NCBI GenBank assembly: GCA_016867715.1
Contig: VGIW01000016.1
Coordinates: 1 to 50,379 of the forward strand
Length of the DNA: 50,379 nucleotides
DNA from: Candidatus Eisenbacteria bacterium
GTDB taxonomy: Bacteria; Orphanbacterota; Orphanbacteria; Orphanbacterales; Orphanbacteraceae
Reading direction: 5' to 3'
Both the position numbers and the translations under genes were made by a program. Positions 11,626 to 45,350 of the stretch are shown piece by piece. Positions within the stretch are counted from its first letter, which is position 1; each line of letters begins with the position of its first letter. The notes beneath the pieces are model-generated. The model was not told the DNA's origin. It saw only the letters and a list, made by a program, of their open reading frames with translations, and did no database searches.

Positions 11626-12444
11626 CTACCGGCTCCCGGAAGACCGAGGCTCGGCGGGCGCGGGGCGCGGCGGCGCCACGAGGAAGAAGGACTCGCCCGG
11701 GAGGGAGCGGTAGAAGCGCTGCGCGTTCTCCGCCTTCATGCGAAGGAGAACACGCGGGCCCTCGTTCGACCAAGAAGCGCGGAGGGCGCGCACTCGTTCC
11801 TCGACACGGCTTCGGACGATCTCCGTGCGAGAGAAGGTCCCCTGACCGGTCGAATCCGCCGAGGACTCAACGACGAGCGTGAGCCCCTCTCGGTAGCGAA
11901 TGCGGTAGACCGGCGGGACCCGATAGGCTTCCTCCGCGGTCGGAGGGATCGGGAGCGCCGGCTGCAGGCTGTCGAGCGCGAGGGCCGAGTCGGGAGGGGT
12001 GAACTCGATCCGCTTCTGGATGCGCGGGGGATCGAGACGCCCGTCCGTCCAGACGCGGACCGTCCAATCATCCGACCGCTTCGAGGGGCGAAACAGGACG
12101 CGGGGGCTCCCCACGCGGATCTCCTCGACCAGGTACTCCTCGAGGAACGCTCCTTTAAGCATCAATCGAAGAGATCTCGTTTCCGGATCGAGCACGACAT
12201 AGAAGAACTTTCCCGAAAGGAGGCTCGGCACAACCTCGCGAGGATGATCCGTCGGAGACGGCGCGTCCGCGGGCGGCTCCTCGCCGTCCCCGCCGCTTCG
12301 GTCAAGGTAGACAGCGATCGCGACGAGAACGGCGCCGGCGACGAGAACGATCGAAGCCCGCCGAAGGCGCTTCCGCGCTCTCCGGCCGCCGCCCGCCGGT
12401 TCCGGGGCGGGGAGGCTAGAAGATGTAGATGGGTGTTCCCACAT
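11626..12444 (-). CDS. Single-pass membrane-anchored protein of unknown function, distal gene of the L,D-transpeptidase cluster
   Basis: 272 aa. A basic Pro-rich cytoplasmic start (residues 1-30, GGGRRARKRLRRA) is followed by one membrane helix (about 31-46, SIVLVAGAVLVAIAVYL) and an acidic Pro-rich linker. The extracytoplasmic region contains FFYVVLDPETRSLRLMLKGAFLEEY, which recalls the opening of YkuD-type domains where the protein is read as a 'hidden' strand pair. No His/Cys active site (HG...GC) is present, so it is not an active L,D-transpeptidase. A later segment RVEERVRALRASWSN may be helical. Its start overlaps the upstream transpeptidase gene by 29 bp, indicating co-translation. It may be a degenerate partner of the two transpeptidases (inference). 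Confidence 0.6.
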   Translation of the reverse strand: MWEHPSTSSSLPAPEPAGGGRRARKRLRRASIVLVAGAVLVAIAVYLDRSGGDGEEPPADAPSPTDHPREVVPSLLSGKFFYVVLDPETRSLRLMLKGAFLEEYLVEEIRVGSPRVLFRPSKRSDDWTVRVWTDGRLDPPRIQKRIEFTPPDSALALDSLQPALPIPPTAEEAYRVPPVYRIRYREGLTLVVESSADSTGQGTFSRTEIVRSRVEERVRALRASWSNEGPRVLLRMKAENAQRFYRSLPGESFFLVAPPRPAPAEPRSSGSR

Positions 12445-13132
12445 GAGCCTGCCGGTACAGCTCGCGGAGATCCGCGCGCCCCAGTCGAATGCATCCGTGC
12501 GTGACGCTTCGCCCGAGCAAGCGTTCGTAGAGGGTTCCGTGAATGAAGTAGCTGTTTCCGAAGCCGAGCGCGTACTCCCCCATCATGTCGTATTCGAAGC
12601 GCTCGCTCGCGTCCTCTGGAATCGGCCTTCCTTCCTCGATGAACGCCCAATCCGGCTTCCTCCAAACGGGATCCTTGATTTTTTGGTTCACGCGGAAAAC
12701 ACCGGGCGGGGTGTCGAAGACCCACTCCTTCGTTCCATGCGAGAGGACGATCCCCGAGCCGCACGAGCAGACGGCGTCGAGGAGCGCGCGCTCCTTCTCG
12801 CGAAGATAGAGCCGGTTGTGCGTCTGGTCGATGACGATGTAGGGGCCGCGCGGCGCGAGCTTCTGAAGGCGGGCGAGGAGGTCCGAGCGCGTCTTCGCGA
12901 GATCGGCGTCCGGCTCTGAAGCGGCTCCGTCCGGAGCGTCGCTCGCGCCGCCCGAAACGCCGTTTTCGTAGGGGTCGTACGCGAAACCGGTTCCGAGAAA
13001 CGCGAGAACGACAAGAACGAGCGCGCTTACGGCAAGTCCGGCGGCGAGCCGGAATCGCCGCGGGGACTTCCGGGCCGGCCCGAAAGCGGCCCGCGGAAGG
13101 TCCGCGGATCGGTCCGCGTTCGAGGCGCTCAT
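12416..13132 (-). CDS. L,D-transpeptidase (YkuD domain), membrane-anchored
   Basis: 238 aa from the ATG at MSASNADRSADL. One N-terminal membrane helix (about 31-52, LAAGLAVSALVLVVLAFLGT) puts the catalytic domain outside. A Gly/Ala/Asp linker leads to PYIVIDQTHNRLYLREKERAL, a typical YkuD opening, then GTKEWVFDTPPGVFRV. The active site is NSYFIHGTLYERLLG followed by SVTHGCIRLGRADL, giving His and Cys of the HG-x(n)-SHGC(I/V)R signature. Enzymes of this family make 3-3 peptidoglycan crosslinks or attach lipoproteins to peptidoglycan. The ATG overlaps the upstream transpeptidase stop as ATGA. Two adjacent enzymes of one family suggest a division of labour, perhaps one crosslinking and one tethering (inference). 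Confidence 0.9.
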   Translation of the reverse strand: MSASNADRSADLPRAAFGPARKSPRRFRLAAGLAVSALVLVVLAFLGTGFAYDPYENGVSGGASDAPDGAASEPDADLAKTRSDLLARLQKLAPRGPYIVIDQTHNRLYLREKERALLDAVCSCGSGIVLSHGTKEWVFDTPPGVFRVNQKIKDPVWRKPDWAFIEEGRPIPEDASERFEYDMMGEYALGFGNSYFIHGTLYERLLGRSVTHGCIRLGRADLRELYRQAHVGTPIYIF

Positions 13133-14289
13133 CCTCCCCTCGCACGCCTGGCTTCTTGGAACCGAAGAACGAGCTCCTGGAAGACGCCGCCGTCGCCGTC
13201 GCTCCCGACGATCGTCACCGGCGTCCCAACCTCCGCGGCGTCGAAGATCTTGTCCATCAGATCGTTCGAGACCGCCACGCACCCCTGCGTCCAGTCGTTT
13301 CCTCGGCCGCCGTCGCCGTGAATCTCGATCAAGCCTCCGGGCGTCGCGTTACGGGGAACGAGCCCCTTCCTCTTCGCCTCTTGAAGCTCCTTCTTGTCCA
13401 GGCTGTTCGGGTAGTCGATCAGAAGCGCTTTGTAGTACTTGGACTGTCCCCGGCCTTTCTTCTGGACGACCGTGTATTTCCCCTCGGGCGTCGCGCCGTC
13501 TCCGGACCGGAGCTTGTCGCTCACGTTGTTGTATCCGATGTCGCACGGGTAGGTCGCCCGCACGACGCCGCCGCGATAGATCATCAATCGATGATTCGCT
13601 TTCGTGACGACGATCGCGGTCTTCCCGGTCCGCCGCGACCACTCGATCGTCTCCTGGACCATGCGGCGCCAGCTCCGCACAAGAGGACCCTGCGTGTAGC
13701 GCGCGGCGCGCTCCGCGCAACGGGTTCCGAGATCCTCCGCCCAGACCGCGGCCTTCTCCGCCAGCTGCCGCGCCTCGTCGTAGTGGCCGTCGCGCTGCCG
13801 GTCCTCCGCCCGCGACAGGAAGAGCCTGGACCGGTTGAGGAGCGAACGTTCCTCGCGCGAAAGATGGATGGTCGCGGCGAGCGCGCTCGACGCGTCCACG
13901 GAGATCTTCGCCCTCGACACCGATTGACGCGCGGATCCTCGCGCGCTCTCCTTGGACGAAACCGCCCCTTCGGCCGCCTCATGGGCGATCGCCTCGGCGA
14001 GCACGAACACGCTCTCCGCGGCGGCAAAGTCGCGCATCGGAAGGAAGCGGACCTCTTGTGTCCGGTACTCGGTGAGCGCCTCGGCGAGCCGCGTCTCCGC
14101 CTCGCGGAACCGCTCCGCCGCCCACGAATCGGCGCCGTGCGCCCGGGCATCCTCGATCGCGCGGAGCGCGAGGTGCCTCGCCGCTTCGGGAGGAGTCGTC
14201 TTCCCCGTCAGAATGGGCCAAGAGAAGAAGAATGCCGCGGAGAACACGGCGAGAACCGCCACCGGGATGAGAATCCAGCGCTTCTTCAT
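13129..14289 (-). CDS. L,D-transpeptidase (YkuD domain) with N-terminal helical DUF4398-like module
   Basis: 386 aa. An N-terminal signal or anchor helix (MKKRWILIPVAVLAVFSAAFFF) is followed by an Ala/Glu/Arg-rich all-helical region to about residue 205. This region includes WAAERFREAETRLAEAL and RDFAAAESVFVLAEAIAHEA, resembling the neighbouring helical lipoprotein. The catalytic domain begins at TAIVVTKANHRLMIYRGG; it carries DGATPEGKYTVVQKKGRGQSK, then GLIEIHGDGGRGNDWTQGC, giving the active His and Cys in an HGDGG...TQGCVAVSN variant. This variant is known among ErfK/YbiS proteins with a GCVA rather than GCIR motif. It likely acts on periplasmic peptidoglycan, with the helical domain positioning it through coiled-coil contacts (inference). 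Confidence 0.88.
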   Translation of the reverse strand: MKKRWILIPVAVLAVFSAAFFFSWPILTGKTTPPEAARHLALRAIEDARAHGADSWAAERFREAETRLAEALTEYRTQEVRFLPMRDFAAAESVFVLAEAIAHEAAEGAVSSKESARGSARQSVSRAKISVDASSALAATIHLSREERSLLNRSRLFLSRAEDRQRDGHYDEARQLAEKAAVWAEDLGTRCAERAARYTQGPLVRSWRRMVQETIEWSRRTGKTAIVVTKANHRLMIYRGGVVRATYPCDIGYNNVSDKLRSGDGATPEGKYTVVQKKGRGQSKYYKALLIDYPNSLDKKELQEAKRKGLVPRNATPGGLIEIHGDGGRGNDWTQGCVAVSNDLMDKIFDAAEVGTPVTIVGSDGDGGVFQELVLRFQEARRARGG

Positions 14290-14449
14290 CGTACTTGCTG
14301 TCGCGGCGCTCCCAGCAAGCGTGCCTGGGGACGAATCAGTCGGGATCGCGCCCGGCTCGCCGGCGGTCGGGCCGCCGGGATCCGGGAAGCGGAGGCGCCC
14401 CCGATCGGTCTCGGCGGAAGCGCCCCCGCGCCTTCTTTCGACGAACGAA

Positions 14450-15064
14450 CTATCTGCGCTTCTTCGCTTCCATCGCGGCGGTCAGCTCGTTCTTCACCGT
14501 CGTCGCCGTGTTGATCGCGAGCTTCGCCTGCTTCTGGGCCTCGAGGTACTTCTCGGACGCGAAGCTCATGTCCGCTTCCGCGATCGTCGTCTCGACCGAA
14601 GCCAAGTCCGACTTCATGACCTGGAGATCGAGGGCGGTCCCCTTCCCGCGCGGCGCCTTCTCGATCATCGTCTGCACTTCGACGAGGAGAGCCTTCGCCT
14701 CGTCGAGGAGACGGGTCGCTTCCGCCATAGCTTCCGCCTTCTTGGCGGCGGCGGTGCTCTTCACTTCCTGGGCCTTAGCCTCTACGTCGGCGGTGAGCGT
14801 CTTCGCCACTTCGTACTTGCGGAACAGGGCGAACTTCTTGTCCTGCACCCCAAGCTCGCGGTCGAGCGCCTGCTCCGCCTCGCGCAGCTTGCGAAGCGCG
14901 TCCGGCGCATACGTCTGCGCGTCCGGCGTCGTGGCTTCGGTCACCGCCGTGCGGGCCGCCGCGATCTCCATCTCGGGACGCTTGGCGCAGCCCGTGAAGG
15001 CGAGGCCGAGCACGGCTACGGCCGCGAACAGGAGCATGGGTTTCCATAGGGTCGTTCTACGCAT
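14450..15064 (-). CDS. DUF4398-like helical lipoprotein
   Basis: 204 aa, starting at the ATG after GGAGGAGGCATTGT. A lipoprotein signal ends in FTGC. The rest is predicted to be helical, built from Ala, Glu, Lys and Leu: AAARTAVTEATTPDAQTYAPDALRKLREAEQ, then EVAKTLTADVEAKAQEVKST and ASEKYLEAQKQAKLAINTA. The pattern A(R)-x-A-(V/I)-x-x-A-x-x-x-x-A...YAP-x-x-L-x-x-A is typical of DUF4398 lipoproteins. Their function is not settled, but they are often near OmpA or peptidoglycan-linked genes. It is the first gene of the cluster with two L,D-transpeptidases, so it could be a substrate tethered to peptidoglycan, as Braun lipoprotein is in E. coli (inference). A good promoter lies about 260 nt upstream. 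Confidence 0.75.
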   Translation of the reverse strand: MRRTTLWKPMLLFAAVAVLGLAFTGCAKRPEMEIAAARTAVTEATTPDAQTYAPDALRKLREAEQALDRELGVQDKKFALFRKYEVAKTLTADVEAKAQEVKSTAAAKKAEAMAEATRLLDEAKALLVEVQTMIEKAPRGKGTALDLQVMKSDLASVETTIAEADMSFASEKYLEAQKQAKLAINTATTVKNELTAAMEAKKRR

Positions 15065-15494: not shown

Positions 15495-18308
15495 ATGAAG
15501 CGTTACAACTTCCGCGCGATCGAGAAAAAGTGGCAAGAGAGATGGGCGCGCGAGGGAACGTTCCGGACTCTCGGGCCGGGCGACCCCGGTTTCGATGCTT
15601 CGCGTCCAAAATATTATGTCCTCGACATGTTCCCGTATCCGTCCGGGGCGGGTCTTCACGTCGGCCATCCGCTCGGGTACATCGCCACGGACATCGTCGC
15701 CCGCTACAAGCGCATGCGGGGGCACAACGTTCTCCACCCGATGGGGTTCGATGCATTCGGGCTTCCCGCGGAGCAATATGCGATCGAGCACGGCGTTCAT
15801 CCCCGCGTCACGACCGAGAAGAACATGGAGACGATGCGCCGCCAGCTCCGCGCGCTCGGGCTCGGCTACGATTGGGATCGCGAGGTCGCGACGATCGACG
15901 TCCGCTACTACAAGTGGACCCAGTGGATCTTCCTTCGCATGTACGATAGTTGGTACGACACGAGCTCCGACCGCGCGCGGCCGATCGCCGATCTGGGGCG
16001 GCTTCTCGCGTCGGGGGAGCGTCTCGTCGGTGCGGACGGATGCCTGATCCGCGCGGACGCGAGGATCTCCTCCGGCGACGCTCCGCGCCCGTGGGCTTCC
16101 CTGTCGAGGAAGGAACAAGAGGCGTTCGTCGACGCGCAGCGCCTCGCCTATCTCGCGGAGGTTCCGGTGAACTGGTGCCCCGCGCTCGGAACCGTCCTCG
16201 CCAACGAAGAGGTGACATCGGAGGGGCGCTCCGAAAGAGGGAACCATCCGGTCTACAAGCGTCCCCTGAAGCAATGGATGCTCCGCATCACCGCGTACGC
16301 GCAGAGGCTCCTCGACGACCTCGATCTCGTGGATTGGCCCGAGCCGATCAAGATGATGCAGAGGAACTGGATCGGCCGGAGCGAGGGGGCGATGGTCCGC
16401 TTCGCAGTCGCGGGGACCGGCGACCCGATCGAGGTCTTCACGACCCGGCCGGACACGATCTTCGGCGCGACCTACATGGTCCTCGCGCCCGAGCACCCTC
16501 TCGTGGAGAAGATCGCGGCTCCCGATCGGGCCGCCGAGGTCCGCGCCTATCGCGAGGCCGCCGCTCGGCGGAGCGACGTCGAGCGCCAAGCGGAGGCGAG
16601 AGAGAAGAGCGGGGTCTTCATCGGCGCGCGCGCGGTCAACCCGGCGACGGACGAGGAGATTCCGATCTGGATCGCCGACTACGTCCTCATGGGGTACGGA
16701 ACGGGCGCGATCATGGCGGTGCCGGCGCACGACGAGCGGGATGCCGCGTTCGCGAAGGAGTTCGGCCTGCCGATCCGCCCGGTGGTCCTCCCGGCCGACG
16801 CATGGTTGAATGCTCAACAAACGACCCGCGAAGCGTATCTCCGCGATCCGGCCGCGTTCGAGGCGGTCTTCGCCGGCGAGGGCGAGGGAGTCGGCTCCTC
16901 AAACGCCGATGTTTCGCTCGACGGGTTGCCGACGGATCGGGCGAAAGAAGCGATCGTCGCCTGGCTTGAAAGGAAGGGGATCGGAGCCGCGAAGGGGCTG
17001 TTCAAGCTGCGCGACTGGCTCTTCAGCCGCCAGCGCTATTGGGGCGAGCCGTTCCCGCTTCTGCACGGGAGCGGCGGGCGGATCCGCGCCGCCGGCGAAG
17101 GGGACCTCCCGGTCGTTCTTCCCGAGATGGAGGACTTCCGCCCCGCGGTCTCCGACGATCCGGAAACCCCGCCGAAGCCCTCGTTGGCGCGCGCCCCGGA
17201 GGAATGGCGGATCGTGACGATCGACGGGGAGCGCTGGGAGCGCGAGCACAACACGATGCCGCAATGGGCCGGTTCGTGCTGGTACTACCTCCGCTTCATC
17301 GATCCGAAGAACGACGCGCGCCTCATCGATCCGGAAAAGGAGCGTTACTGGATGTCGCCGGGCGGCGTCGATCTCTACCTCGGCGGCGTCGAGCACGCGG
17401 TCTTGCACCTTCTCTACGCGCGTTTCTGGCACAAGCTGCTCCACGACCTCGGGTACCTCTCGACGAAGGAGCCGTTCGGGCGCCTCTTCAACCAGGGCTA
17501 CATCCAGGCGTACGCGTACACGGACGAGCGCGGCGTCTACGTGGACGCGGCCCGGGTCGTCGAGGAGAAGGACGGGAAGTTCACGTTCGAAGGAAAACCG
17601 GTGACGCGCGCGTACGGGAAGATGGGAAAGTCGCTGAAGAACGCGGTGACGCCGGACGAGCTCGTCGCGGAGTACGGATGCGACAGCTTCCGCCTGCACG
17701 AGATGTACATGGGCCCGATCGAGGTCTCGAAGGCGTGGAGCACGCACGAGATCGTCGGCATGCACCGATTCCTTCTCCGCATTTGGAGAAACTTCTTCGA
17801 CGAGAAGACCGGTGCGCCCCTCGTCCGCGAGGAACGCCCCGGGGAGGACCTCCTCCGTCTTCTCCACCGAACGATCCGAACCGTCACGGACGATCTCGAG
17901 AACCTCCGCTTCAACACGGCGATCGCCGCCCTCATCGAGCTAAACAACGCGCTCGTGGGGAGAGAGAGCCTCCCGCGAGCGGTCGCCGAGCCGCTCGTTC
18001 TCATGCTCGCGCCGATGGCGCCGCATTTCTGCGAGGAGCTCTGGGAAGCGCTCGGGGGCGAGGGGTCGGTCGCGGTGGCGTCCTGGCCGGAGTGCGACGA
18101 GAAGTATCTCGTCCTCGAGGAGATCGAGATCGTCGTTCAGGTGATGGGAAAGCTCCGCGCAAAGATTCTCGTCCCGGCGGACGCCGGCGAGGAGATGGTG
18201 TGCGAGCGCGCATCCGCCGATCCCGGCGTCCGGCGCCACCTCGAGGGGAAGACGATCCGCAAGGTGATCTTCGTGCCGGGCCGCCTCATCAACTTCGTCG
18301 CTTCTTAA
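15495..18308 (+). CDS. leuS: Leucyl-tRNA synthetase
   Basis: 937 aa, longer than the roughly 860 aa common in bacteria. It charges tRNA-Leu with leucine and edits mischarged tRNA. Class I motifs: FPYPSGAGLHVGHPLGY (HIGH box as HVGH, residues 55-58) and GKMGKSLKN (KMSKS loop as KMGKS, K709-S713). The CP1 editing domain is present (FTTRPDTIFGATYMVLAPEHPLV; YGTGAIMAVPAHDERD). An insertion around WYDTSSDRARPIADLGRLL to AFVDAQRLAYLAEV precedes PVNWCPALGTVLANEEV; this resembles the insertion I associate with Bacteroidetes-like LeuRS. An upstream in-frame ATG at 15360 would add 45 residues unlike any LeuRS N-terminus, so 15495 was preferred. Cytoplasmic; monocistronic by position. Confidence 0.97.
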   Translation: MKRYNFRAIEKKWQERWAREGTFRTLGPGDPGFDASRPKYYVLDMFPYPSGAGLHVGHPLGYIATDIVARYKRMRGHNVLHPMGFDAFGLPAEQYAIEHGVHPRVTTEKNMETMRRQLRALGLGYDWDREVATIDVRYYKWTQWIFLRMYDSWYDTSSDRARPIADLGRLLASGERLVGADGCLIRADARISSGDAPRPWASLSRKEQEAFVDAQRLAYLAEVPVNWCPALGTVLANEEVTSEGRSERGNHPVYKRPLKQWMLRITAYAQRLLDDLDLVDWPEPIKMMQRNWIGRSEGAMVRFAVAGTGDPIEVFTTRPDTIFGATYMVLAPEHPLVEKIAAPDRAAEVRAYREAAARRSDVERQAEAREKSGVFIGARAVNPATDEEIPIWIADYVLMGYGTGAIMAVPAHDERDAAFAKEFGLPIRPVVLPADAWLNAQQTTREAYLRDPAAFEAVFAGEGEGVGSSNADVSLDGLPTDRAKEAIVAWLERKGIGAAKGLFKLRDWLFSRQRYWGEPFPLLHGSGGRIRAAGEGDLPVVLPEMEDFRPAVSDDPETPPKPSLARAPEEWRIVTIDGERWEREHNTMPQWAGSCWYYLRFIDPKNDARLIDPEKERYWMSPGGVDLYLGGVEHAVLHLLYARFWHKLLHDLGYLSTKEPFGRLFNQGYIQAYAYTDERGVYVDAARVVEEKDGKFTFEGKPVTRAYGKMGKSLKNAVTPDELVAEYGCDSFRLHEMYMGPIEVSKAWSTHEIVGMHRFLLRIWRNFFDEKTGAPLVREERPGEDLLRLLHRTIRTVTDDLENLRFNTAIAALIELNNALVGRESLPRAVAEPLVLMLAPMAPHFCEELWEALGGEGSVAVASWPECDEKYLVLEEIEIVVQVMGKLRAKILVPADAGEEMVCERASADPGVRRHLEGKTIRKVIFVPGRLINFVAS

Positions 18309-18394: not shown

Positions 18395-18811
18395 CTATTC
18401 CACGCAGTCGGCGATCCGTTTCGCGAGCGCGGCGCCCGAGGTCGCGTCCAGCTTGCCGGCGTTCCACGCGATCTCGAGCCCGGAGCCGTCGTCGAACTTG
18501 GGGATGATGTGGAAGTGGACGTGGTCGACGAACTGATGCGCCGCCCGCCCGTTGTTCTGGAGAACGTTGAAGGAAGCGGCGCCGGTCGCCTTCATCACGG
18601 CGCGGCTGAGGCGCGGAAGCACCCGTCCGATCGCGGCGGCCGCCGCGTCCGAGAGACGATCGATTGTCTCGGCCGGCTCCTTCGGAATGACGAGCGTGTG
18701 CCCTTCGCTGAGCGGGCCGATGTCGAGAAACGCGAGCACGCGCTCGTCTTCGTAGATCTTGTGGCAAGGGATCTCGCCCGCCAGGATCTTCGTGAAGATC
18801 GTCTCGGCCAT
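18395..18811 (-). CDS. HIT-family hydrolase (histidine triad)
   Basis: 138 aa from the ATG at MAETIFTKILAGEIP, with GAGAGGAG upstream; an earlier in-frame start would add 27 residues from poorly conserved sequence. Hallmarks: FTKILAGEIPCHKIYEDERVL (the N-terminal HIT opening), AFLDIGPLSEGHTLVIPKE, FNVLQNNGRAAHQFVDH and the triad HVHFHIIP. Proteins of this length belong to the HINT/Hit branch, nucleoside phosphoramidase or nucleotide hydrolases of the cytoplasm. The gene lies 121 nt downstream of rpmG on the same strand and converges with leuS. Confidence 0.93.
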   Translation of the reverse strand: MAETIFTKILAGEIPCHKIYEDERVLAFLDIGPLSEGHTLVIPKEPAETIDRLSDAAAAAIGRVLPRLSRAVMKATGAASFNVLQNNGRAAHQFVDHVHFHIIPKFDDGSGLEIAWNAGKLDATSGAALAKRIADCVE

Positions 18812-18932
18812 GCGAAGTCTCCTCTCACGGTCGGGCGCGTCCGCGCCGAGAATCGCGAGCGCCGTTCGGCGCAAAGAACCCCGCGGGGGCACCCTCGCCC
18901 AGGCTAGCCTCGCGATCCGCCCAGGGCGTTCG

Positions 18933-19311: not shown

Positions 19312-20379
19312 CTACAAAAACCGGTACGTGATGCCGATCGAAAGGGTCTGCTTGAACTGACCCGCCTTTCGGATCGCCGCGCGGACGTCGCCCGGGTTCT
19401 CGATCGCCCCGTCGATCGCCTCGGTCGGCGGGACCGTGTTGTCGTATTTATCGTAGAGCCACCTGAGGTACAGGTTGACCGAGAGGTACTTCGTGATCTG
19501 AGTCGAGAAGATGTTCTCCCAGTCGACGTCGAGAGCCATCGGGTAGTCGGCGACGTCGGAGGGGAAATCCGCGGCAGCGAGCTCGTCGACCGAAAGGCCG
19601 TCGAGGATGTCGCTGAATGAATAGAAGACCGGCTGGTAGAGGCTCAGCTTCGACGTCCAGGCGACCTGGTCGTCCAGAATCTTCGTCTTGTAGTCGGTCA
19701 CCCATTCGAGGCCGCCGTCGTTCGTCGTCAGCGTCTTCGTCTCGTTTCCCTCGAGCGGGTCGACGAAGAACTTCCGGCTGCTCTGACGGAAGGTGAAGCC
19801 GAATCGGCTGAGAAGCTCCCTGTCCTTCTCCTTGATGAACTCGTGCGCCACGCCCCCCGATTCCTTGAACTTCAAAGGATTAAGGAAAAGGGATCTCCCT
19901 CCGGTCGTGTCGGAAACGTCCTGGAACTGGCTCTCGAAGCGAGCGGAGACGTAGGGATCGAGAAACCAGCCGAGCGTGAAGCGGAGGACGCTCTCCAGGT
20001 CGATCAGGTCGGTCGACTTCTCCGGCTTGTCCCACCCGCGGGTCCCGCTCGAGCGGATCTTCTGCTGGTGCGTTTGCCCGAAGGCGAGCTTCAGGATGCT
20101 CTTCGAGTTCGTCTTCTCGTTGAGCTGGTTCTCGAGCGTCCCGTTCGTGATGAGCGCCCACACGACGGAGCCCTTGTCCCCTCCGCTCCAGTTGTTGCTG
20201 TAGGCGCTCTGCGTGATGTTGAGGCCGCTTTCGAGGCTCGGATACCAGCGGCCCGTCTCGAGCTTCTTCTCTTTCGAATCCTGCGCCGCTCCGGGCGCGG
20301 CTGTGGCGAAGAGACAGGCGGTGGCGACCAGGGCCGCCGCAAGGTCGCGGCCCAACCAGCGTTCGAGACGAGTCTTCAA
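19312..20379 (-). CDS. DUF3078-like outer-membrane beta-barrel protein
   Basis: 355 aa starting at TTG (MKTRLERWLGR), 6 nt after a strong AAGGAGG; no ATG or GTG competes. Signal peptide to about residue 33 (VATACLFATAAPGAAQ). The mature start, SGLNITQSAYSNNWSGGDKGSVVW, matches the opening of DUF3078 proteins, where (L/F)N-(L/I)-(S/T)-Q-x-x-(F/Y)SNNW-x-GG-x-x-S is the mark. The body is alternating strands (FTLGWFLDPYVSARFESQF, TKYLSVNLYLRWLYDKY) and ends in an aromatic strand (GITYRFL), as in outer-membrane barrels. Its role is unknown. It is divergent from the FG-GAP protein gene, with a repeat cluster in the 418-bp gap. Confidence 0.8.
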   Translation of the reverse strand: MKTRLERWLGRDLAAALVATACLFATAAPGAAQDSKEKKLETGRWYPSLESGLNITQSAYSNNWSGGDKGSVVWALITNGTLENQLNEKTNSKSILKLAFGQTHQQKIRSSGTRGWDKPEKSTDLIDLESVLRFTLGWFLDPYVSARFESQFQDVSDTTGGRSLFLNPLKFKESGGVAHEFIKEKDRELLSRFGFTFRQSSRKFFVDPLEGNETKTLTTNDGGLEWVTDYKTKILDDQVAWTSKLSLYQPVFYSFSDILDGLSVDELAAADFPSDVADYPMALDVDWENIFSTQITKYLSVNLYLRWLYDKYDNTVPPTEAIDGAIENPGDVRAAIRKAGQFKQTLSIGITYRFL

Positions 20380-20626
20380 CGCTTGCCTCCTTCTTCTTTT
20401 CTTCGGCGCGCGCGCCCGCGGCGCTTCTCGCCCCAGATCGCCGCGCGCCGTCCCCTTCATGCGAATCGACGATCGTCGGAAGGATAGCAGATGGGCCGGG
20501 CGATTTCGGGGGGCGAATTCGGGCGGCACAAGATCCGTTTCACGAGCTGCGGGGCGAGAGACGGCATGCCTCGACCTCGACATCGCCGGGATTTGTGAGG
20601 CGCTCCCGAATACCCTCCCTCCCGCC

Positions 20627-20657
20627 GCGTAACGCCTGCGTAACGCCTGCGTAACGC
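20627..20657. repeat. Three phased copies of GCGTAACGC
   Basis: An 11-bp unit GCGTAACGCCT occurs twice perfectly (20627-20637, 20638-20648) and a third partial copy follows (20649-20657, GCGTAACGC). The 9-bp core is itself a palindrome around a central A. Spacing of one helical turn is what phased operator sites look like. The repeat lies in the 418-bp gap (20380-20797) between the divergent DUF3078-like and FG-GAP genes, where no coding frame is convincing. Confidence 0.7.
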
Positions 20658-20797
20658 GCTCCCGGTACCATTCTCGCGTGATGGGGAACGAACAGCGTTG
20701 GCCCTGCCGCCCGGCTCGAGGTGCCGACGACTTGGGGAGAGCGTGCTCTATCAGTCGAGGGGTCCTGTTCCGACGACTCGGAAGGAGGAATGAGCCG

Positions 20798-22333
20798 ATG
20801 AAGAGAGGAAGCACAAGCCCGACCATTCGCGGAGCGCTCGCGCCGCTCGCTCTGCTCGCCGCGTTTGGCTGGATCGGAGCGGCGGCGGAGCCGGTGGAGA
20901 CCAAGGTCCTGGCCTCGGACGCCGCTTTCGGCGACCGGTTCGGAAGCGGGGTCGCGATCTCCGGCGCCTACGCGCTGATCGGCGCGCAGGCGGATGACGA
21001 CCTCGGCGGGGACGCCGGAGCCGCGTACATTTTCGACCTTTCGAGCGCGACGGAGATCCGCAAGATCCACGCTTCCGACGGCGCCGGGGGGGACTACTTC
21101 GGCGTCGAGGTCGCGGCTTGGGGAGACCGGGCTTTGATCGGGGCGCTTCGTGACGATCATGCCGCGACCGATGCCGGGTCCGCGTACATCTTCGACCTCG
21201 CGGACGGGACGGAGCTCCACAAGCTGGTCGCCTCGGACGCGGCGGTGGACGACTGGTTCGGCTGCGCGGTCGCCCTCTCGGACGCGTACGCTCTAGTCGG
21301 CGCGTACAAGTACAACCAGAGCTCCACAATCTACGACAGCGGCGCGGCCTACCTCTTCGACGCCGCGACCGGCGCGCAGATCCGCAAGCTGACCGCCTCG
21401 GACGCGGGGAAGCAGGACTGGTACGGCTACGCGGTCGCGGTCTCGGACGCCTATGCGGTGGTGGGCGCCCCCAACTGGGACGGGATCGGGACGACCCATA
21501 CCGACTGCGGGGCGGTCTACGTCTACGACCCCGCCACAGGGCAGGAGCTGTGGAAGCTGACGACGGTCGATCAGGGAGGATATGACCGCTTCGGCAACGC
21601 GCTCGCCATTCAGGGGGATCTCCTGCTCGTCGGGTGCTACTGGGACTCGAACGACGGAGGGGGCGACGCGGGCGCCGCCTATCTGTTCGATCTCACCACC
21701 GGGGAGCAGCTCCTCGAGATCTTCGCGGCGGAGCCGGAGGGGGGCGGCGACTGGTTCGGCGCGGCGGTCGCGCTGTCGGACGGCTACGCGGTGATCGGCG
21801 CGCCGCAGCAGGGGTACGGCACCGAGCTCGAGGGGTTCGCGTGCGTGGTCGACCTCGCGACGGGGGAGGAGGTTGAGCGCCTCGCCGCGTCGGACGGCTA
21901 CCTGGACGACAACTTCGGGGCCGCGGTCGCGATCCAAGGGCCGGTCGCTCTCGTCGCGGCCGACATGAACGACGACAACGGAACGAACTCCGGCTCCTCG
22001 TACTTCTATGAGCCGGTGACGCCCGCGACCGGCGCGGCGGAGGGGGTCGTTCCGCGAAGCCTCGTCCTCCAAAACCGCCCGAACCCGTTCAACCCGGCGA
22101 CCGAAATCCTCCTCACGCTCCCCTTCGACAGCCCAGTTCGGCTCGAGGTCCGGGACGCGCGCGGACGGCACGTGCGCACCCTCCTTCCGGGAGACCGCGT
22201 CCCTGCGGGCGATGTGCGCGCGGTATGGGACGGCACGGACGAGAGGGGCGCACCGGTCCCGAGCGGCGTCTACTTCTATCAGGCGGAGGCGACGAATCTT
22301 CGAGCCGCCGGAAAGATGATTCTTATAAAATAG
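20798..22333 (+). CDS. FG-GAP-repeat beta-propeller protein with FlgD-like C-terminal domain
   Basis: 511 aa. Signal peptide after MKRGSTSPTIRGALAPLALLAAFGWIGAAAEP. Seven consecutive units of about 52-56 residues follow (residues 37-410), each of the form SD(A/G)-x-x-x-D-x-FG-x-(A/E)VA-x-x-G-x-x-A-x-(V/I)GA...AGAAYIFDL-x-x-(G/T)-x-E-(I/L)-x-K-(L/I). FG or YG marks each blade. Seven units suggest a closed seven-bladed FG-GAP propeller, a fold used for protein or ligand binding at the surface. The final roughly 85 residues are an FlgD-like Ig domain: LVLQNRPNPFNPATEI, VRAVWDGTDERGAPVPSGVYF, end GKMILIK. Ribosome site GAAGGAGGAATG lies upstream. A clear terminator follows. Confidence 0.88.
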   Translation: MKRGSTSPTIRGALAPLALLAAFGWIGAAAEPVETKVLASDAAFGDRFGSGVAISGAYALIGAQADDDLGGDAGAAYIFDLSSATEIRKIHASDGAGGDYFGVEVAAWGDRALIGALRDDHAATDAGSAYIFDLADGTELHKLVASDAAVDDWFGCAVALSDAYALVGAYKYNQSSTIYDSGAAYLFDAATGAQIRKLTASDAGKQDWYGYAVAVSDAYAVVGAPNWDGIGTTHTDCGAVYVYDPATGQELWKLTTVDQGGYDRFGNALAIQGDLLLVGCYWDSNDGGGDAGAAYLFDLTTGEQLLEIFAAEPEGGGDWFGAAVALSDGYAVIGAPQQGYGTELEGFACVVDLATGEEVERLAASDGYLDDNFGAAVAIQGPVALVAADMNDDNGTNSGSSYFYEPVTPATGAAEGVVPRSLVLQNRPNPFNPATEILLTLPFDSPVRLEVRDARGRHVRTLLPGDRVPAGDVRAVWDGTDERGAPVPSGVYFYQAEATNLRAAGKMILIK

Positions 22334-38346: not shown

Positions 38347-38388
38347 CAAGCAATGATCGTTGATAGTCGAAGGAACGGAGGTTCCATC

Positions 38389-39153
38389 ATGACTCTCGGA
38401 CAACGGTCGATGCCTTGTCTCGTTGCGGCCGCCGTCTTCCTTCTTGTCCTGGCAGGCTCGGCAAACGGAGCCTCGGCCGGAGAGGAGACGGCCGCGCTCG
38501 ATCGAGCGATCGGACATTACTGGGACGGTCTCTTCTCGGATGCGGTCGCCGCGCTCGATCCGCTCGCCGATTCGCTCGAAGGCGAGAAAGAGATTCTCGC
38601 TCGCGAGTACCTCGCGCGCTCGCTTGTTCGGCTCGGCGAGGAAGATCGCGGCCGCGAGGCGTTCAAGGCGCTTCTTCGGATCCGTCCCGACTGGAGGCCG
38701 GACACGAAGGTCGTCGCCGGCCCCGAGATGAGCGCGTTCGAAGCGGCGCTCGAAGAGTACGAAAACGAGAACCTCGGCGCCCTCAGCGTGCGCACCGATC
38801 CGACGCGCGCGAACGTTGTGCTCGACGGCGAGCTCGAGAAGGAGCCGACACCGGTCACGATCGAGCGGATCCCCGCCGGAGAGCATCGGGTTCGGGTCGA
38901 GAGGGATGGATACGCGGCGCGGGACACGGTTGTGACGATCGCCGCCGCCGAAATCGCCGCGCTCGACCTTGTCCTCGTTCCGATCGAGGAGCATCGCGGG
39001 CCGGCGCCCTTCTGGAAGAAGCGGTGGGTGCAGGTGACGGCGGGGGGTGTGTTCGGCGTGGGCCTCCTGCTCGCGCTCGCCGGAGGCGGCGGGGACGGCG
39101 GCGGAGAGACGCCCAGCGATCTCCCCGGTTTCCCGGAGCCCCCGCATCGGTAG
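38389..39153 (+). CDS. PEGA-domain membrane-associated protein
   Basis: 254 aa from the ATG after GGAGG (an in-frame ATG 36 nt earlier has no ribosome site). Signal peptide (AAAVFLLVLAGSANGASA). Residues about 32-120 are helical and TPR-like (AIGHYWDGLFSDAVAALDPLAD, EYLARSLVRLGEEDRGREAFKALLRIRPDW). A PEGA domain follows (about 140-200): LGALSVRTDPTRANVVLDGEL, then PVTIERIPAGEHRVRVERDGY. One C-terminal membrane helix (about 222-240, VQVTAGGVFGVGLLLAL) with a Gly-rich tail. PEGA domains are surface-exposed modules thought to bind carbohydrate or peptidoglycan. The gene ends against a palindromic element and converges with a kinase that also ends in PEGA-like repeats. Confidence 0.85.
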   Translation: MTLGQRSMPCLVAAAVFLLVLAGSANGASAGEETAALDRAIGHYWDGLFSDAVAALDPLADSLEGEKEILAREYLARSLVRLGEEDRGREAFKALLRIRPDWRPDTKVVAGPEMSAFEAALEEYENENLGALSVRTDPTRANVVLDGELEKEPTPVTIERIPAGEHRVRVERDGYAARDTVVTIAAAEIAALDLVLVPIEEHRGPAPFWKKRWVQVTAGGVFGVGLLLALAGGGGDGGGETPSDLPGFPEPPHR

Positions 39154-39229: not shown

Positions 39230-39267
39230 GCCCCGAATGGAGCGGCTGCGGATCGCGGCCTCGTGAC
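39181..39267. repeat. Direct repeat pair spanning the 3' ends of convergent genes
   Basis: A 25-nt sequence starting CGGCTGCGGATCGCGG occurs at 39181-39205, inside the foldback element, and again at 39243-39267 with 2 mismatches, ending at the TAG stop of the kinase gene. It looks like a partial second copy of the element. Confidence 0.55.
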
Positions 39268-41210
39268 TATGGTTCCGTGATTTCCTGAAGCGTGAAGGAA
39301 AGCTCGATCATCGCGCCGTCGCGGATCGCCGCCTCGACGATCCCTTCCTCGACCCGGAACCCCTCCTTCTTCACCGTGACGCGATGAAGCCCCGGGGCGA
39401 TGGGGATTTCTCTCTGCGGGGTCCACTTGTCGGTCGGCGCGTCGTCGATCCAGATCATCGCGGGGATCCGGTTCGTGGTCACCGTGAGAAAGGCGCCCTT
39501 CGCTTCCTTCGTGAAGTCGTGCGCGAGGGCGACCGTTTGGTTCGACGGAAGCGCGACCTTGTTCCACGTTTTCGTTCCGTAGAACGGGTTCTCGAGCCGG
39601 ACGTCGTAGGCGCCGGGCGCGAAGAGGAGCGAGACCGCCGAGACGTTCTCGGCGATCACGCGGCCGTTCACGACGAAGGTCGCGGACGGCTTGGCGGTGA
39701 TATCGAGCGTTCCGTTCGCGGGCGCTTCGGCGGGAGCTTCCTCGCGGCTCGCCGGCTTCGGCGGGTCGGCGGGAGCGGCCGGAGCGGTGACCGATTCGCT
39801 CCGCGGCGCGGAAGCGATCGCCGGCTCGTTCTTCTCGGGTCGGGAGCGTTCCGCGGCGCGCTCTTCGATCGGCGGGGGTTCGTGCCGCGCATTCACGTCG
39901 GCCGCCTCTGTCGCCGCCAGTCCAACCGATGCCGCCGCCGCGACGAGAGAAGGATTCCTCTCGCTCGACGAAAGGGGCGATCGCGAGTCGTCCTCGCGCG
40001 CGGCGTCCCTTCCGCCGCCGACGAGCCAAGCGCCTCCGGCGGCTAAAACGACGAGAGCCGCGCCGGCGATCGAAAGCGCGCGCGCGCGTCTCCCCGGACT
40101 CCGGAGAACGGACGAGAAGCCGCCTTCTCCGCGCGCCCCCCGGCTTCCGCGCGGCGCCTTCTGCGCGCGGAGCTCTTCGAGATGACGGGTGACCTCGTCG
40201 TTCTCGGGCGCGAGATAGTGCGCCCGCTCGAACTCCTTGATCGCGTCGTCGATCTTCTCGAGCCCCATGCTCTTGTACTGATACGCGCGGTTCAGGTGCT
40301 CCTTGAAACGCCGGACGGAAAGCGTTTTCTTCACCTCGTCCGGTTTCGCCAGATACTCGGCGATGAGATCCGTCCCCCGCGTCACGCCCCAATGATCGAT
40401 CACCGGCTCGAGGTCTCTTCGGACCGCGTCCGCGCTCTGATAGCGCTTCGCGGGGTCCTTGTGGAGCATCTTCGAGACGATGTGGTGAAGCTCGTCGGTG
40501 ACGAGGGGGTTCAGGTTGACGAGGGGGAGCGGATCGAGCGTCACGATCGCGTGGATCACGCTCGCCGAGCTGCTCCCCGGAAAGGGACGCCTTCCGCCGA
40601 AGATCTCGTAGGCGACCACGCCGAGCGAGAAGATGTCGGAGCGCTCGTCCACGTGCTGGCCGGTCGCGTGCTCCGGCGACATATACGGGACGGTTCCGAT
40701 CATGGTCTCGTGCACCGTGAGAACCGTCGATTCCTGCGTCTGCTTGGCGAGCCCGAAGTCGGCGATCTTCGGGACGCCGGTCGGCGAGAGCATAATGTTC
40801 GCCGGCTTGATGTCGCGGTGGATGATGTGGTGCGCGTGCGCGTGCGCGAGCCCCGCGCACACGTCGTAGAGGACGAGCGTCCCGATCTCGGTCGGGAGCG
40901 AGCCGTGCAGCTCGATCCACTTCTTGAGATCCCAACCGTTTACGTATTCCATCGCGATGTACCAGGTATCGTCGGCGAGCCCGTAATCGATGATCTTGAC
41001 GATGTTCTCGTGGCTCATCGCGGCCGCCGCCTTCGCCTCTCGTTCGAAGCGGGCGACGAACGTCTTGTCCTCGCGAAGATGCTCGTGCATCGTCTTGAGG
41101 ACAACCGTGCGGCCGAGCGACTTCTGAATCGCCGTGTAGACGGTCGCCATGCCGCCGACGCCGATCTTCTTGACGATCTGGTAGCCGCCGAAATCCTGAT
41201 TCATAAGCAT
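39267..41210 (-). CDS. Transmembrane Ser/Thr protein kinase with PEGA-like extracellular repeats
   Basis: 647 aa. Kinase domain (about 8-275): glycine loop GYQIVKKIGVGGMATVYTA, VVLKTMHEHL (Lys), catalytic loop IIHRDIKPANIML, DFGLAKQTQ, GTVPYMSPEHATG and DIFSLGVVAYEIFGG. A helical region with a TPR-like pair follows (AYQYKSMGLEKIDDAIKEFERA). One membrane helix (about 380-400, LSIAGAALVVLAAGGAWLVGG) and a Pro/Ala/Glu-rich stalk lead to extracytoplasmic repeats: LDITAKPSATFVVNGRVIAE and FLTVTTNRIPAMIWIDDAPT ... IPIAPGLHRVTVKKEGF, both PEGA-like. It would sense the envelope and signal inside. Two ATGs lie 6 nt apart; I kept the upstream one. It converges with the PEGA-domain protein gene. Confidence 0.93.
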   Translation of the reverse strand: MLMNQDFGGYQIVKKIGVGGMATVYTAIQKSLGRTVVLKTMHEHLREDKTFVARFEREAKAAAAMSHENIVKIIDYGLADDTWYIAMEYVNGWDLKKWIELHGSLPTEIGTLVLYDVCAGLAHAHAHHIIHRDIKPANIMLSPTGVPKIADFGLAKQTQESTVLTVHETMIGTVPYMSPEHATGQHVDERSDIFSLGVVAYEIFGGRRPFPGSSSASVIHAIVTLDPLPLVNLNPLVTDELHHIVSKMLHKDPAKRYQSADAVRRDLEPVIDHWGVTRGTDLIAEYLAKPDEVKKTLSVRRFKEHLNRAYQYKSMGLEKIDDAIKEFERAHYLAPENDEVTRHLEELRAQKAPRGSRGARGEGGFSSVLRSPGRRARALSIAGAALVVLAAGGAWLVGGGRDAAREDDSRSPLSSSERNPSLVAAAASVGLAATEAADVNARHEPPPIEERAAERSRPEKNEPAIASAPRSESVTAPAAPADPPKPASREEAPAEAPANGTLDITAKPSATFVVNGRVIAENVSAVSLLFAPGAYDVRLENPFYGTKTWNKVALPSNQTVALAHDFTKEAKGAFLTVTTNRIPAMIWIDDAPTDKWTPQREIPIAPGLHRVTVKKEGFRVEEGIVEAAIRDGAMIELSFTLQEITEP

Positions 41211-43747: not shown

Positions 43748-45205
43748 TCACTCCCGCGAGGGGAGCGCGTTCGCTCCCGCCCGCCGGGCCTCGCGCTCCA
43801 TGAGGCGCACGAGCTCTCTCCGCACGCCATCGTCGATCGCGGGCGGCTCGTGCCGCGCGATCCGCGCGTCCACCTCGGCGCGCGCTCTCTCCAGAAGCGT
43901 ACGGCTCCCCTCCTCGATCCACCGGGGCCGGTTCGCGCGATCGATCACGGGACCCGGGAAAAGATGCTCCTCGCGGAGGTGGCGCCGCGTGTGCGCGGAG
44001 ATGAGGAGATGATTCTCGCGAAGAAGCTCCTCGAAGATCGGCCGCGACGGGAAATCCTCCCTCGGCTCGATGCCGCGGACGAGGCGGAGGACCATTCCGC
44101 AGATCTCGTTGTCGACGACAAGCTTCTCGAGGCTCTGGCAGCTCTCGAAGTCGAGCATGCCGGGGCCGGAGATGTTGTTGATGCCGGAGAGCGCCGCGAG
44201 AACGGCCCCCATCGCGGATTCGAGCCCGGCCTGCGCGTCGAGGAGCTTCGCGTCGGAGAGCGCGATGTACGCCTGCGTCGGCAGCCCGAGGCGCTTTCCG
44301 ATCTCGTTGGCCGCGCAGTCGATCATTTGCGTCTCGATCGCGCCCATCGGGGTCGTTTCGTAGCGGACGTCGAAGGCGGCCGGCGAGCCTCCGTAGAGGA
44401 TCGGCGCCCCCGCTCTCGCGCACTGGGCGATCACGACGCCGCTCAGCGTCTCGGCGGTGTGCTGCACGAGCGTGCCGACGAGCGTGACCGGCGCGAGAAA
44501 GCCGGAGAGGGGCATCGCAATGAACTCGACGGGGATGAGGGATCGCGCGCAGTCGACCACGTTCTCCGACGTCACGTCGCTCCACTTGAGGGGCGAGGTC
44601 GGGCAGCAAGAGAACACGGCGAGCGGCTTCTCCTCGAGCGCGCGCTCCGATCCGCGCACCGCGATCTGCATGTCGCGCATCACGGCGAACGATTCAATGG
44701 TGAAGGTTCCCGTGACGACCGGCTTCTCGCAGTAGAGCAGGCTGAGAAACAAGCGGTAGCTGTCGGATATCTTCTCGGGAACATCGGACGGGATGAAGGC
44801 GGTGCTTTGCGAGGCGAGATGCTCGAGGCCCCCCATCAGCTTCGCGTAGCGGACGTAGTCGTGCGTGAGGGGCTTTCGGATCGCGTCCGTCTCGGGATCG
44901 AGGACGTGAAGAGCCGCGGAACCGGGGGTGAAGTGGACGTTGTCCCCGGAGAAGTCGTTCGTCTCCCGGCCGAGAACGTCGTACAGCTTGAACGATCGGG
45001 GCGCGGCGCGGAGCGAACGGTCGAGAAGCGCATCCCCGATGCGGACCCTGCGGGTCTCGCGATCGACGAGCGCGCCGTGTTCCGCGAGGAGGGAGACGAC
45101 CGAGTCGTTTTGGATCGTGACGCCGATCTCTCGGAGGACGTCGCGCGCCTCGCCGAGAATGCGGTCGGCGAGATCATCGGAGAGAAGCCGGAGGGTCGGT
45201 CGCAA
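43748..45205 (-). CDS. MttB-family (trimethylamine methyltransferase-like) corrinoid methyltransferase, non-pyrrolysine
   Basis: 485 aa, close to the normal length for the family. The start is a TTG preceded by AAAGGAG at 5 nt; the frame extends further upstream but with no family similarity. Landmarks: DLADRILGEARDVLREIGVTI (N-terminal helix), FTPGSAALHVLDPETDAIRK, THDYVRYAKLMGGLEHL, CCPTSPLKWSD, PLSGFLAPVTLVGTLVQHTAET and AQCARAGAPILYGG. The frame is open from start to stop, so no amber-encoded pyrrolysine is needed; it is one of the non-Pyl MttB homologues, some of which demethylate glycine betaine, carnitine or proline betaine. The substrate is not readable here. First gene of the corrinoid methyl-transfer operon. 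Confidence 0.93.
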   Translation of the reverse strand: MRPTLRLLSDDLADRILGEARDVLREIGVTIQNDSVVSLLAEHGALVDRETRRVRIGDALLDRSLRAAPRSFKLYDVLGRETNDFSGDNVHFTPGSAALHVLDPETDAIRKPLTHDYVRYAKLMGGLEHLASQSTAFIPSDVPEKISDSYRLFLSLLYCEKPVVTGTFTIESFAVMRDMQIAVRGSERALEEKPLAVFSCCPTSPLKWSDVTSENVVDCARSLIPVEFIAMPLSGFLAPVTLVGTLVQHTAETLSGVVIAQCARAGAPILYGGSPAAFDVRYETTPMGAIETQMIDCAANEIGKRLGLPTQAYIALSDAKLLDAQAGLESAMGAVLAALSGINNISGPGMLDFESCQSLEKLVVDNEICGMVLRLVRGIEPREDFPSRPIFEELLRENHLLISAHTRRHLREEHLFPGPVIDRANRPRWIEEGSRTLLERARAEVDARIARHEPPAIDDGVRRELVRLMEREARRAGANALPSRE

Positions 45206-45292
45206 GCGGGCTCCTTTCTTCGGCGCGGCCGGGCGGTGTCTCTCGGCTATTCTCGCAAGCCCTCGCCCTCGGGTCAAGAAGGCGGCCGCCGG

Positions 45293-45321
45293 TTGGGTTC
45301 GTGCTCCTCTTGTCGTATACT
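45293..45321 (+). promoter_or_regulatory. Promoter of the cysteine-desulfurase-like gene
   Basis: TTGGGT, a 17-nt spacer and TATACT. Transcription would begin near 45328, about 23 nt before the GTG start. The element lies in the 145-nt gap (45206-45350) shared with the divergent corrinoid operon; the GTATAC centre also reads as a weak -10 on the other strand. Confidence 0.45.
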
Positions 45322-45350
45322 CGGAGGGCGCCGGTCGCGGAGGTGATTTC

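Follow-up and report, generated by a model that had tools for sequence, protein, structure and literature searches.

A conserved gene cassette encoding a helical lipoprotein, two YkuD enzymes and a membrane-anchored protein, a candidate system for attaching a lipoprotein to peptidoglycan and releasing it

In Escherichia coli, YkuD-family enzymes attach the Braun lipoprotein (Lpp) to peptidoglycan and release it again, the release being carried out by DpaA (PMC8263019). The same account reports Lpp from a subset of Gammaproteobacteria and DpaA-like enzymes from many bacteria without Lpp, including Bacteroidetes and Acidobacteria, and leaves the substrate of these enzymes open. Here, we analyzed a 50,379-nucleotide stretch of DNA from Candidatus Eisenbacteria bacterium (contig VGIW01000016.1 of assembly GCA_016867715.1, positions 1 to 50,379; hereafter the window), which encodes a helical lipoprotein next to two YkuD-domain enzymes, termed YkuD-1 and YkuD-2, and a membrane-anchored fourth protein. 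Based on the comparison of these sequences with their relatives, we tentatively favor the reading, to which we give slightly less than an even chance, that the four genes form a cassette attaching the helical lipoprotein to peptidoglycan and releasing it.

The four genes are all encoded on the minus strand; the lipoprotein comes first, followed by YkuD-1, YkuD-2 and the fourth protein, and the positions, order and ATGA overlap are those that an earlier note on this DNA, made from the letters alone, had described. The lipoprotein gene (15064-14450) encodes 204 amino acids with a lipobox, FTGC, ending in Cys26, and the mature part is predicted to be all-helical and distantly related to DUF4398. 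YkuD-1 (14289-13129, 386 amino acids) is predicted to consist of a hydrophobic anchor helix (residues 3-28 in the model), a lipoprotein-like helical domain and a hydrolase-type, DpaA-like YkuD domain, while YkuD-2 (13132-12416, 238 amino acids) has an N-terminal hydrophobic stretch followed by a YkuD domain of transpeptidase type. The fourth gene (11626-12444) encodes 272 amino acids with an N-terminal membrane anchor. A Pfam scan found YkuD in both enzymes and sub-threshold matches only in the lipoprotein and the fourth protein, the latter having no family above the cut-off. The ATGA forms the overlap of the two YkuD genes, and the YkuD-2 and fourth genes overlap by 29 bases. The 160 bases between the lipoprotein gene and YkuD-1 gave no terminator-like site in a pattern scan, and there is nothing unusual in their predicted RNA fold (z -0.88). 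In the window's genome, estimated to be 100% complete, we found exactly two YkuD proteins, both in the cassette, and no match to Lpp (PF04728) at E <= 1. Among named relatives, the locus is closest to L044, which lies on a contig labelled Gemmatimonadetes and has a YkuD-1 of 93% identity.

The helical domain of the lipoprotein (residues 30-203; 14456..14977, minus strand) and the N-terminal domain of YkuD-1 (residues 33-199; 13693..14193, minus strand) are homologous over their helical length. In a protein search of 116 genomes, the lipoprotein query matched the YkuD-1 gene of another genome (G035, E 3.0e-7), and a five-row lipoprotein profile matched two places in the window's own genome, namely the lipoprotein and the N terminus of YkuD-1 (13879-14214, E 5.2e-12). 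The shared domain proposed in the earlier note was borne out by the profile-profile comparison it had called for, in which 78 lipoproteins and 81 YkuD-1 N-terminal regions aligned over 162 of 184 columns with a score of 130.2 (probability 99.4, E 1.1e-21). A reversed profile scored 12.9, 30 column shuffles reached at most 16.3, and 30 heptad-block shuffles, which preserve short stretches of true homology, reached at most 44.7, ruling out a chance similarity of coiled-coil or Ala-rich sequences; circularly shifted profiles were unusable as a control, since the local aligner recovers the shifted block and scores 130.2 again. Run against 2689 open reading frames from 80 loci, a profile of the mature lipoprotein matched the 78 lipoproteins, as expected by construction given that these are rows of the model, YkuD-1 in 76 of the 80 loci, and one more frame, which is a lipoprotein remnant in L118.

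AlphaFold models built from two separate 38-row alignments have the same helix order and similar helix lengths, with a mean predicted local distance difference test score of 90.7 for the lipoprotein (helices 31-44, 47-52, 54-76, 85-136, 144-169 and 173-203) and 91.6 for YkuD-1 (N-terminal helices 35-50, 53-56, 58-80, 89-138, 145-166 and 170-199). As no solved structure resembles the lipoprotein model at a Foldseek E below 0.1, and VIA-align Z scores of up to 12 are at the level usual for helical bundles, what the models indicate about the lipoprotein fold is limited to helix order. In a tree, 20 lipoproteins and 20 YkuD-1 helical domains fall cleanly into their two kinds (support 100/99). YkuD-1 probably arose when a second copy of the lipoprotein gene, made by duplication, was joined to a DpaA-like domain; because the tree is unrooted, and midpoint rooting nests the lipoproteins among the enzyme copies, it supports an old split and does not establish the direction of copying.

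Two details of the earlier description stood in part. The motif said to have the same spacing in both proteins is homologous in its Q...F portion, where Q74 aligns with Q78 and K77 with R81, but REAE precedes the conserved Q by 13 residues in the lipoprotein and by 16 in YkuD-1. Because the aligned pairs put the quoted REAE stretches out of register by three residues, the REAE match is a coincidence inside a true homology. Likewise, the label DUF4398-like is fair, if weak. At E <= 0.01, DUF4398 is the commonest Pfam match in the family, with 18 of 38 rows for the lipoprotein and, after YkuD itself, 14 of 38 for YkuD-1, while in the window's lipoprotein it is sub-threshold (14.9 bits against a cut-off of 27.9) and below a V-SNARE match (18.1 bits) that is sub-threshold as well.

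We then considered the class of the two enzymes. YkuD enzymes with transpeptidase activity are described as having an Arg two residues past the catalytic Cys (Cys+2), whereas DpaA-like proteins mostly have Ala or Asn there and L,D-carboxypeptidases likewise lack the Arg (PMC8263019). In the catalytic domain of YkuD-1 (residues 224-360; 13210..13620, minus strand; catalytic Cys337, with Ala339 at Cys+2), the catalytic Cys is present in 81 of 81 sequences, and Cys+2 is Ala in 79, Ser in two and Arg in none. A five-row YkuD-1 profile searched against solved structures ranked DpaA (8ikr) first (E 1e-10), followed by Csd6, Bd1075 and Pgp2; no transpeptidase did better than E 0.015. Given the missing Arg and DpaA as the best solved relative by profile, YkuD-1 is probably of hydrolase type and not a transpeptidase. 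In addition, a model of its catalytic domain scored 45.1 bits against DpaA among six E. coli enzymes, the next being LdtA at 22.3, and the NCBIfam DpaA model was matched at E <= 0.001 by all 38 YkuD-1 rows scanned out of the 81.

YkuD-2, by contrast, has the features of the transpeptidase type. Its catalytic domain (12422..12844, minus strand; Pfam YkuD) contains THGC with Cys214 and an Arg at Cys+2 (Arg216), and both His-Gly-Cys and this Arg occur in 79 of 79 sequences. A five-row profile placed the L,D-transpeptidases 4lzh (E 1.4e-13) and 9tyw first among solved structures, 4lzh being also matched by the window's sequence alone (E 2e-9), and the catalytic-domain model scored best against LdtB (53.3 bits) and worst against DpaA (5.0) among the six E. 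coli enzymes. When ten YkuD-2 proteins were scanned, L,D-transpeptidase models matched best and the DpaA model matched none at E <= 0.001. The best score against an NCBIfam equivalog of a named enzyme was 36.6 bits for a cut-off of 583, so that YkuD-2 looks like a transpeptidase-type enzyme that is no orthologue of a named one.

The earlier note had taken both enzymes for transpeptidases with the role of attaching the lipoprotein to peptidoglycan, or spacing it there, in a Braun-like manner, a view to which the YkuD domain in both proteins and the basic tail of the adjoining lipoprotein lend some support (Lys in the last three residues of 60 of the 76 lipoproteins with at least 190 amino acids, the three shorter ones of 79 being excluded). 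This view suits YkuD-2, but the Cys+2 residue, which is not the transpeptidase Arg in any of the 81 YkuD-1 sequences, and a profile closer to DpaA and the carboxypeptidases than to transpeptidases lead us to reject YkuD-1 as a transpeptidase, and we regard a pair of attaching transpeptidases as very improbable.

A greater challenge comes from a possible, if doubtful, alternative, in which the cassette encodes a peptidoglycan-editing complex: YkuD-1 would be an L,D-carboxypeptidase that trims tetrapeptides, YkuD-2 would make 3-3 cross-links, and the lipoprotein would be a non-covalent partner or regulator, its helical domain being a docking unit that enzymes may carry. The absence of Arg at Cys+2 is common to DpaA-like proteins and carboxypeptidases, and the three carboxypeptidases follow directly after DpaA in the profile search. 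Several further results tell against a DpaA-like release enzyme: the window's YkuD-1 sequence alone matches Bd1075 (E 1.1e-4) and DpaA (1.2e-4) equally, Foldseek puts Bd1075 first, and VIA-align puts Csd6 first (Z 15.8), level with several transpeptidases (14-16), and gives DpaA 12.3, so that fold comparison with the model does not separate the YkuD classes. A tree joins DpaA to YkuD-1 (100/97), on very long branches that make this count little, and the DpaA equivalog NF040599 scores 32.1 bits for a cut-off of 365, by which YkuD-1 is to be called DpaA-like and not DpaA.

The active site helps to weigh these possibilities. DpaA is reported to require Lys83 and, nearly as strictly, Tyr109 and Tyr131, and to have Met133 where the D-Ala pocket of carboxypeptidases has a Trp, Trp158 in Csd6 (PMC10653827). 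Counting from the catalytic Cys in alignments to solved relatives, we located the equivalent of Lys83 at Lys259 (81 of 81 YkuD-1 sequences) and that of Tyr109 at Tyr285 (78 of 81). At the loop-3 position of Tyr131, a residue that the E. coli enzyme needs, 68 of the 81 have Leu and one has Tyr, a further point against the DpaA reaction. The Trp158/Met133 position is Glu322 in all 81 sequences, which suggests that YkuD-1 is not an ordinary D-Ala carboxypeptidase, without proving the reaction of DpaA; on the side of the leaving group, an invariant Glu would match a basic one. Together with the profile search that makes DpaA the nearest solved relative, this Glu is what weighs against the editing complex. 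As a separate observation, YkuD-1 is itself predicted to be a lipoprotein in at least eight relatives (L047, L057, L058, L062, L075, L086, L089 and L116), which have a lipobox with a Pro-rich start closely following; the lipobox pattern was found in 12 of 81 sequences, some of them doubtful.

To determine how far the cassette is conserved, we searched GTDB 220, represented by one genome for each species, with a YkuD-1 alignment; this gave 258 relatives, and the analysis used the 80 best, such that close matches are over-represented. A cultured marine bacterium, Roseivirga echinicomitans KMM 6058 (L074), is among those with the cassette. The lipoprotein, YkuD-1 and YkuD-2 genes are all present in this order in 76 of the 80 loci, in agreement with the tie between the lipoprotein and YkuD enzymes that the earlier note had drawn from gene order. 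As for the four exceptions, L045 starts within YkuD-1, L118 has unread bases and the lipoprotein remnant, and L109 and L122 stop before YkuD-2. The lipoprotein precedes YkuD-1 in all 78 loci where that side is readable. Downstream of YkuD-2, a homologue of the fourth protein was found in 73 of the 74 loci with a picked frame after that gene, comprising 69 in one cluster (E <= 1e-4) and four recovered by direct search where the wrong frame had been picked; only L068 had none. The fourth protein has a hydrophobic N-terminal helix in 64 of 73 aligned rows on a simple scale, and conserved stretches near its end, e.g., dA..iYRA.P. A 27-column likeness to the start of YkuD-2 was too weak (probability 11.5%, P 0.0026) to make it a degenerate YkuD. 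Among 47 upstream frames the largest cluster had four members, revealing no conserved upstream gene.

The loci carry 13 phylum names in their titles (Bacteroidota 45, Zixiibacteriota 13, Acidobacteriota 2, Calditrichota 2 and nine others with one each), the labels being those deposited, with nine loci lacking one and single labels possibly reflecting binning errors. In a sample of 386 genomes, the lipoprotein profile matched 69 at E <= 0.001, 14 of them strongly (below 1e-30). The YkuD-1, YkuD-2 and fourth genes occur together in all 14, with the lipoprotein in front in 13, although in G317 the lipoprotein ahead of the enzymes is cut by a contig end; this genome has a second lipoprotein relative on a short contig. 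In nine more genomes near G178, a genome considered further below, the lipoprotein adjoins YkuD-1 in every case. Because five genomes from other genera of the window's own family have neither the lipoprotein nor YkuD-1, the distribution is patchy. A DpaA-like domain without the helical domain was found at six loci in five genomes, and neither the lipoprotein nor the fourth gene occurs in any of the six stretches read, one of which (L031) has a second YkuD gene adjoining.

This linkage bears on another reading, that the helical domain is a mere stalk or oligomerisation unit reused in neighboring genes, the enzymes acting on the wall in general with no special link to the lipoprotein. It gains from eight loci (L036-L043) where weaker lipoprotein relatives have no YkuD neighbor of either type, and from two observations that count against attachment and release: in G182 the lipoprotein is on one contig and the other three genes are on another, each place lying in the interior of a long contig, and stand-alone relatives exist, one of which in G163 (L194 3804-4781, minus strand), a second lipoprotein relative with a GAPTGK loop, has no YkuD neighbor within the 8 kb read. 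The gene order given above, kept in all 78 readable loci and 13 of the 14 genomes, weighs the other way, as do the pairwise distances, for those of the lipoproteins track the YkuD-1 helical domain (r 0.92, partial 0.46, bootstrap 0.39-0.53) above any other part of the cassette. The fourth protein tracks the YkuD-1 helical domain and YkuD-2 with a partial correlation of 0.49 each, and its raw correlation with the former, 0.936, is the highest of all. Although such correlations between raw distances of related sequences are suggestive only, that between the lipoprotein and the YkuD-1 helical domain would fit contact between the two. We consider the stalk improbable.

The helical fold is also linked directly to the transpeptidase type. 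In G178, a 357-amino-acid protein encoded besides the genome's own cassette (L195 3665-4738, minus strand) joins a membrane anchor and a helical domain to a YkuD domain of YkuD-2 type (E 1.2e-44, THGCVR), and its helical domain is nearer to the lipoproteins (E 2.3e-24) than to the YkuD-1 copies (2.7e-9). In G386, of the same family as G178, a membrane-anchored protein of this helical type with an APRGK loop lies 18 bases before a transpeptidase-type YkuD gene (L221 3637-4977, minus strand), and no YkuD-1 was found in the 9.5 kb read. Since YkuD-1 carries the fold and these two cases add the other class, the helical fold is tied to both enzyme types. The G178 fusion is also compatible with a domain that docks YkuD enzymes in general, as the editing complex would have it, and counts against attachment and release; so does the number of YkuD proteins, for of 23 cassette genomes just 10 have exactly two, the other 13 having one to four more.

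We next examined the lipoprotein for its membrane and for candidate attachment points. A lipobox was found by pattern in 75 of 79 lipoproteins; Ala, Gly or Ser follows the Cys in 73 of them, and none has Asp there. Under the E. coli sorting rule such a residue directs a lipoprotein to the outer membrane, where the family would be placed on this ground. Three properties of the tail do not favor attachment in the manner of Lpp. First, the window's lipoprotein ends in KKRR, and the last residue in 78 others is Lys in 40, Arg in 20 and another residue in 18, so that a Braun-type terminal Lys is unsupported and not required; the editing complex would accommodate this lack of conservation. Second, both Lys (0.395 against 0.108 in the body) and Arg (0.140 against 0.021) are enriched in the last six residues of the 76 lipoproteins used above, which indicates that charge rather than Lys is kept, even though 72 of the 76 have a Lys within the last four. 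Third, residues 109-197 of the model match antiparallel three-helix bundles, matches that are common for helical bundles, and together with the match to the DUF4398 hairpin they would imply that the C terminus lies at the lipid-anchor end, unlike that of Lpp, which is at a far tip. The Lpp/OprI alanine zipper model NF040598 scored 15.1 bits (E 0.024) against the lipoprotein, below its cut-off of 43, and PF04728 did not match the window's lipoprotein.

Two internal lysines are candidates. Neither K77 nor the P-x-G-K loop (138-141), which ends in K141, varies in any of 78 lipoproteins. The YkuD-1 copies have largely lost both lysines: of 81 sequences, four have Lys at the place of K141, and at that of K77 there are 58 with Arg and 13 with Lys. 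The fold matches, read from the ranges of the alignments and not from coordinates, would put K77 at the hairpin tip and both K141 and the C terminus close to the anchor.

Based on these results, the model of attachment and release would operate as follows. YkuD-2 would couple the lipoprotein, through one of its amino groups, to the third residue of a stem peptide, and YkuD-1, as a DpaA-like hydrolase, would cut the bond between lipoprotein and stem peptide; the helical domain of YkuD-1, of common origin with the lipoprotein, would dock the enzyme beside its substrate, and the fourth protein would be a membrane-anchored accessory. Attachment, cutting, docking and sidedness are what we infer from the homology, gene order and diagnostic residues described above. 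In its most specific form, which we think rather unlikely, the cassette would provide a covalent tether of the outer membrane that arose independently of Braun lipoprotein and occurs in about a dozen phyla by label, with a release enzyme bearing a copy of its substrate's fold, the two assembling side by side, and with attachment at an internal Lys, K77 or K141.

Other features of the window were recorded along the way. Near the cassette, a gene for a DUF3078 protein (19312-20904, minus strand; 30.6 bits for a cut-off of 25) is separated from it by genes for leucyl-tRNA synthetase (15498-18308, plus strand) and a HIT protein (18395-18892, minus strand). An MTTB-family methyltransferase (43748-45445, minus strand; Pfam E 5.2e-72) is encoded in a 565-amino-acid open frame with no in-frame stop, inside which the Rfam pyrrolysine insertion element PYLIS_3 matches at 44161-44260 (39.8 bits for a cut-off of 38); this gene is probably a non-pyrrolysine relative keeping sequence matched by the RNA model. 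A protein kinase with a weak PEGA match (39267-41210, minus strand) adjoins a PEGA-domain protein (38353-39153, plus strand).

Among described proteins, a solved likeness of the helical domain is the DUF4398 (PF14346) protein PA2901 of Pseudomonas aeruginosa (4fm3), whose whole 96-residue chain aligns with residues 32-136 of YkuD-1 (Z 12.4, root-mean-square deviation 2.9), although for helices such a Z may reflect a common arrangement only; the lipoprotein and YkuD-1 each have two further helices, and the window's lipoprotein stays below the Pfam cut-off. The L,D-carboxypeptidases Csd6, Pgp2 and Bd1075 share with YkuD-1 the lack of Arg at Cys+2, the first-loop Lys and the YkuD fold, and differ in the D-Ala pocket, with Trp in place of the Glu of all 81 YkuD-1 sequences. 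LimB27 of Coxiella, set beside our lipoprotein by description only, is an outer-membrane lipoprotein joined to peptidoglycan via Lys21, which indicates that an attachment Lys can lie off the C terminus; its transpeptidase is given as unknown in that account (PMC12729407).

From the titles and abstract openings of the open-licence literature, no published account of the cassette was apparent. Here, in Bacteroidetes, Acidobacteria and other phyla, a DpaA-like enzyme adjoins one specific lipoprotein and is fused to a relative of it, which makes the question of substrate left open for such enzymes directly testable. If attachment is true, Gammaproteobacteria would not be alone in tethering the outer membrane covalently and having a dedicated enzyme to release it, and an enzyme bearing a copy of its substrate's fold would be an unusual route to specificity.

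The system of Lpp, LdtA-C and DpaA in E. coli is a close parallel, as it combines, like the cassette, a lipoprotein, transpeptidase-type and hydrolase-type YkuD enzymes in one organism, with most diagnostic residues in agreement. However, the E. coli genes are scattered, lpp adjoining ldtE, whose product makes 3-3 links, whereas those described here are linked. Moreover, Lpp is described as a single helix with a terminal Lys and DpaA as a compact single domain (PMC10653827), whereas the lipoprotein here has several helices without a fixed terminal Lys and YkuD-1 has an added lipoprotein-like domain. What this locus adds to the known attachment and release by YkuD enzymes is thus an unrelated lipoprotein linked to both enzyme types and a fourth protein, mostly outside the range of Lpp, with a hydrolase-type enzyme that carries a relative of the lipoprotein.

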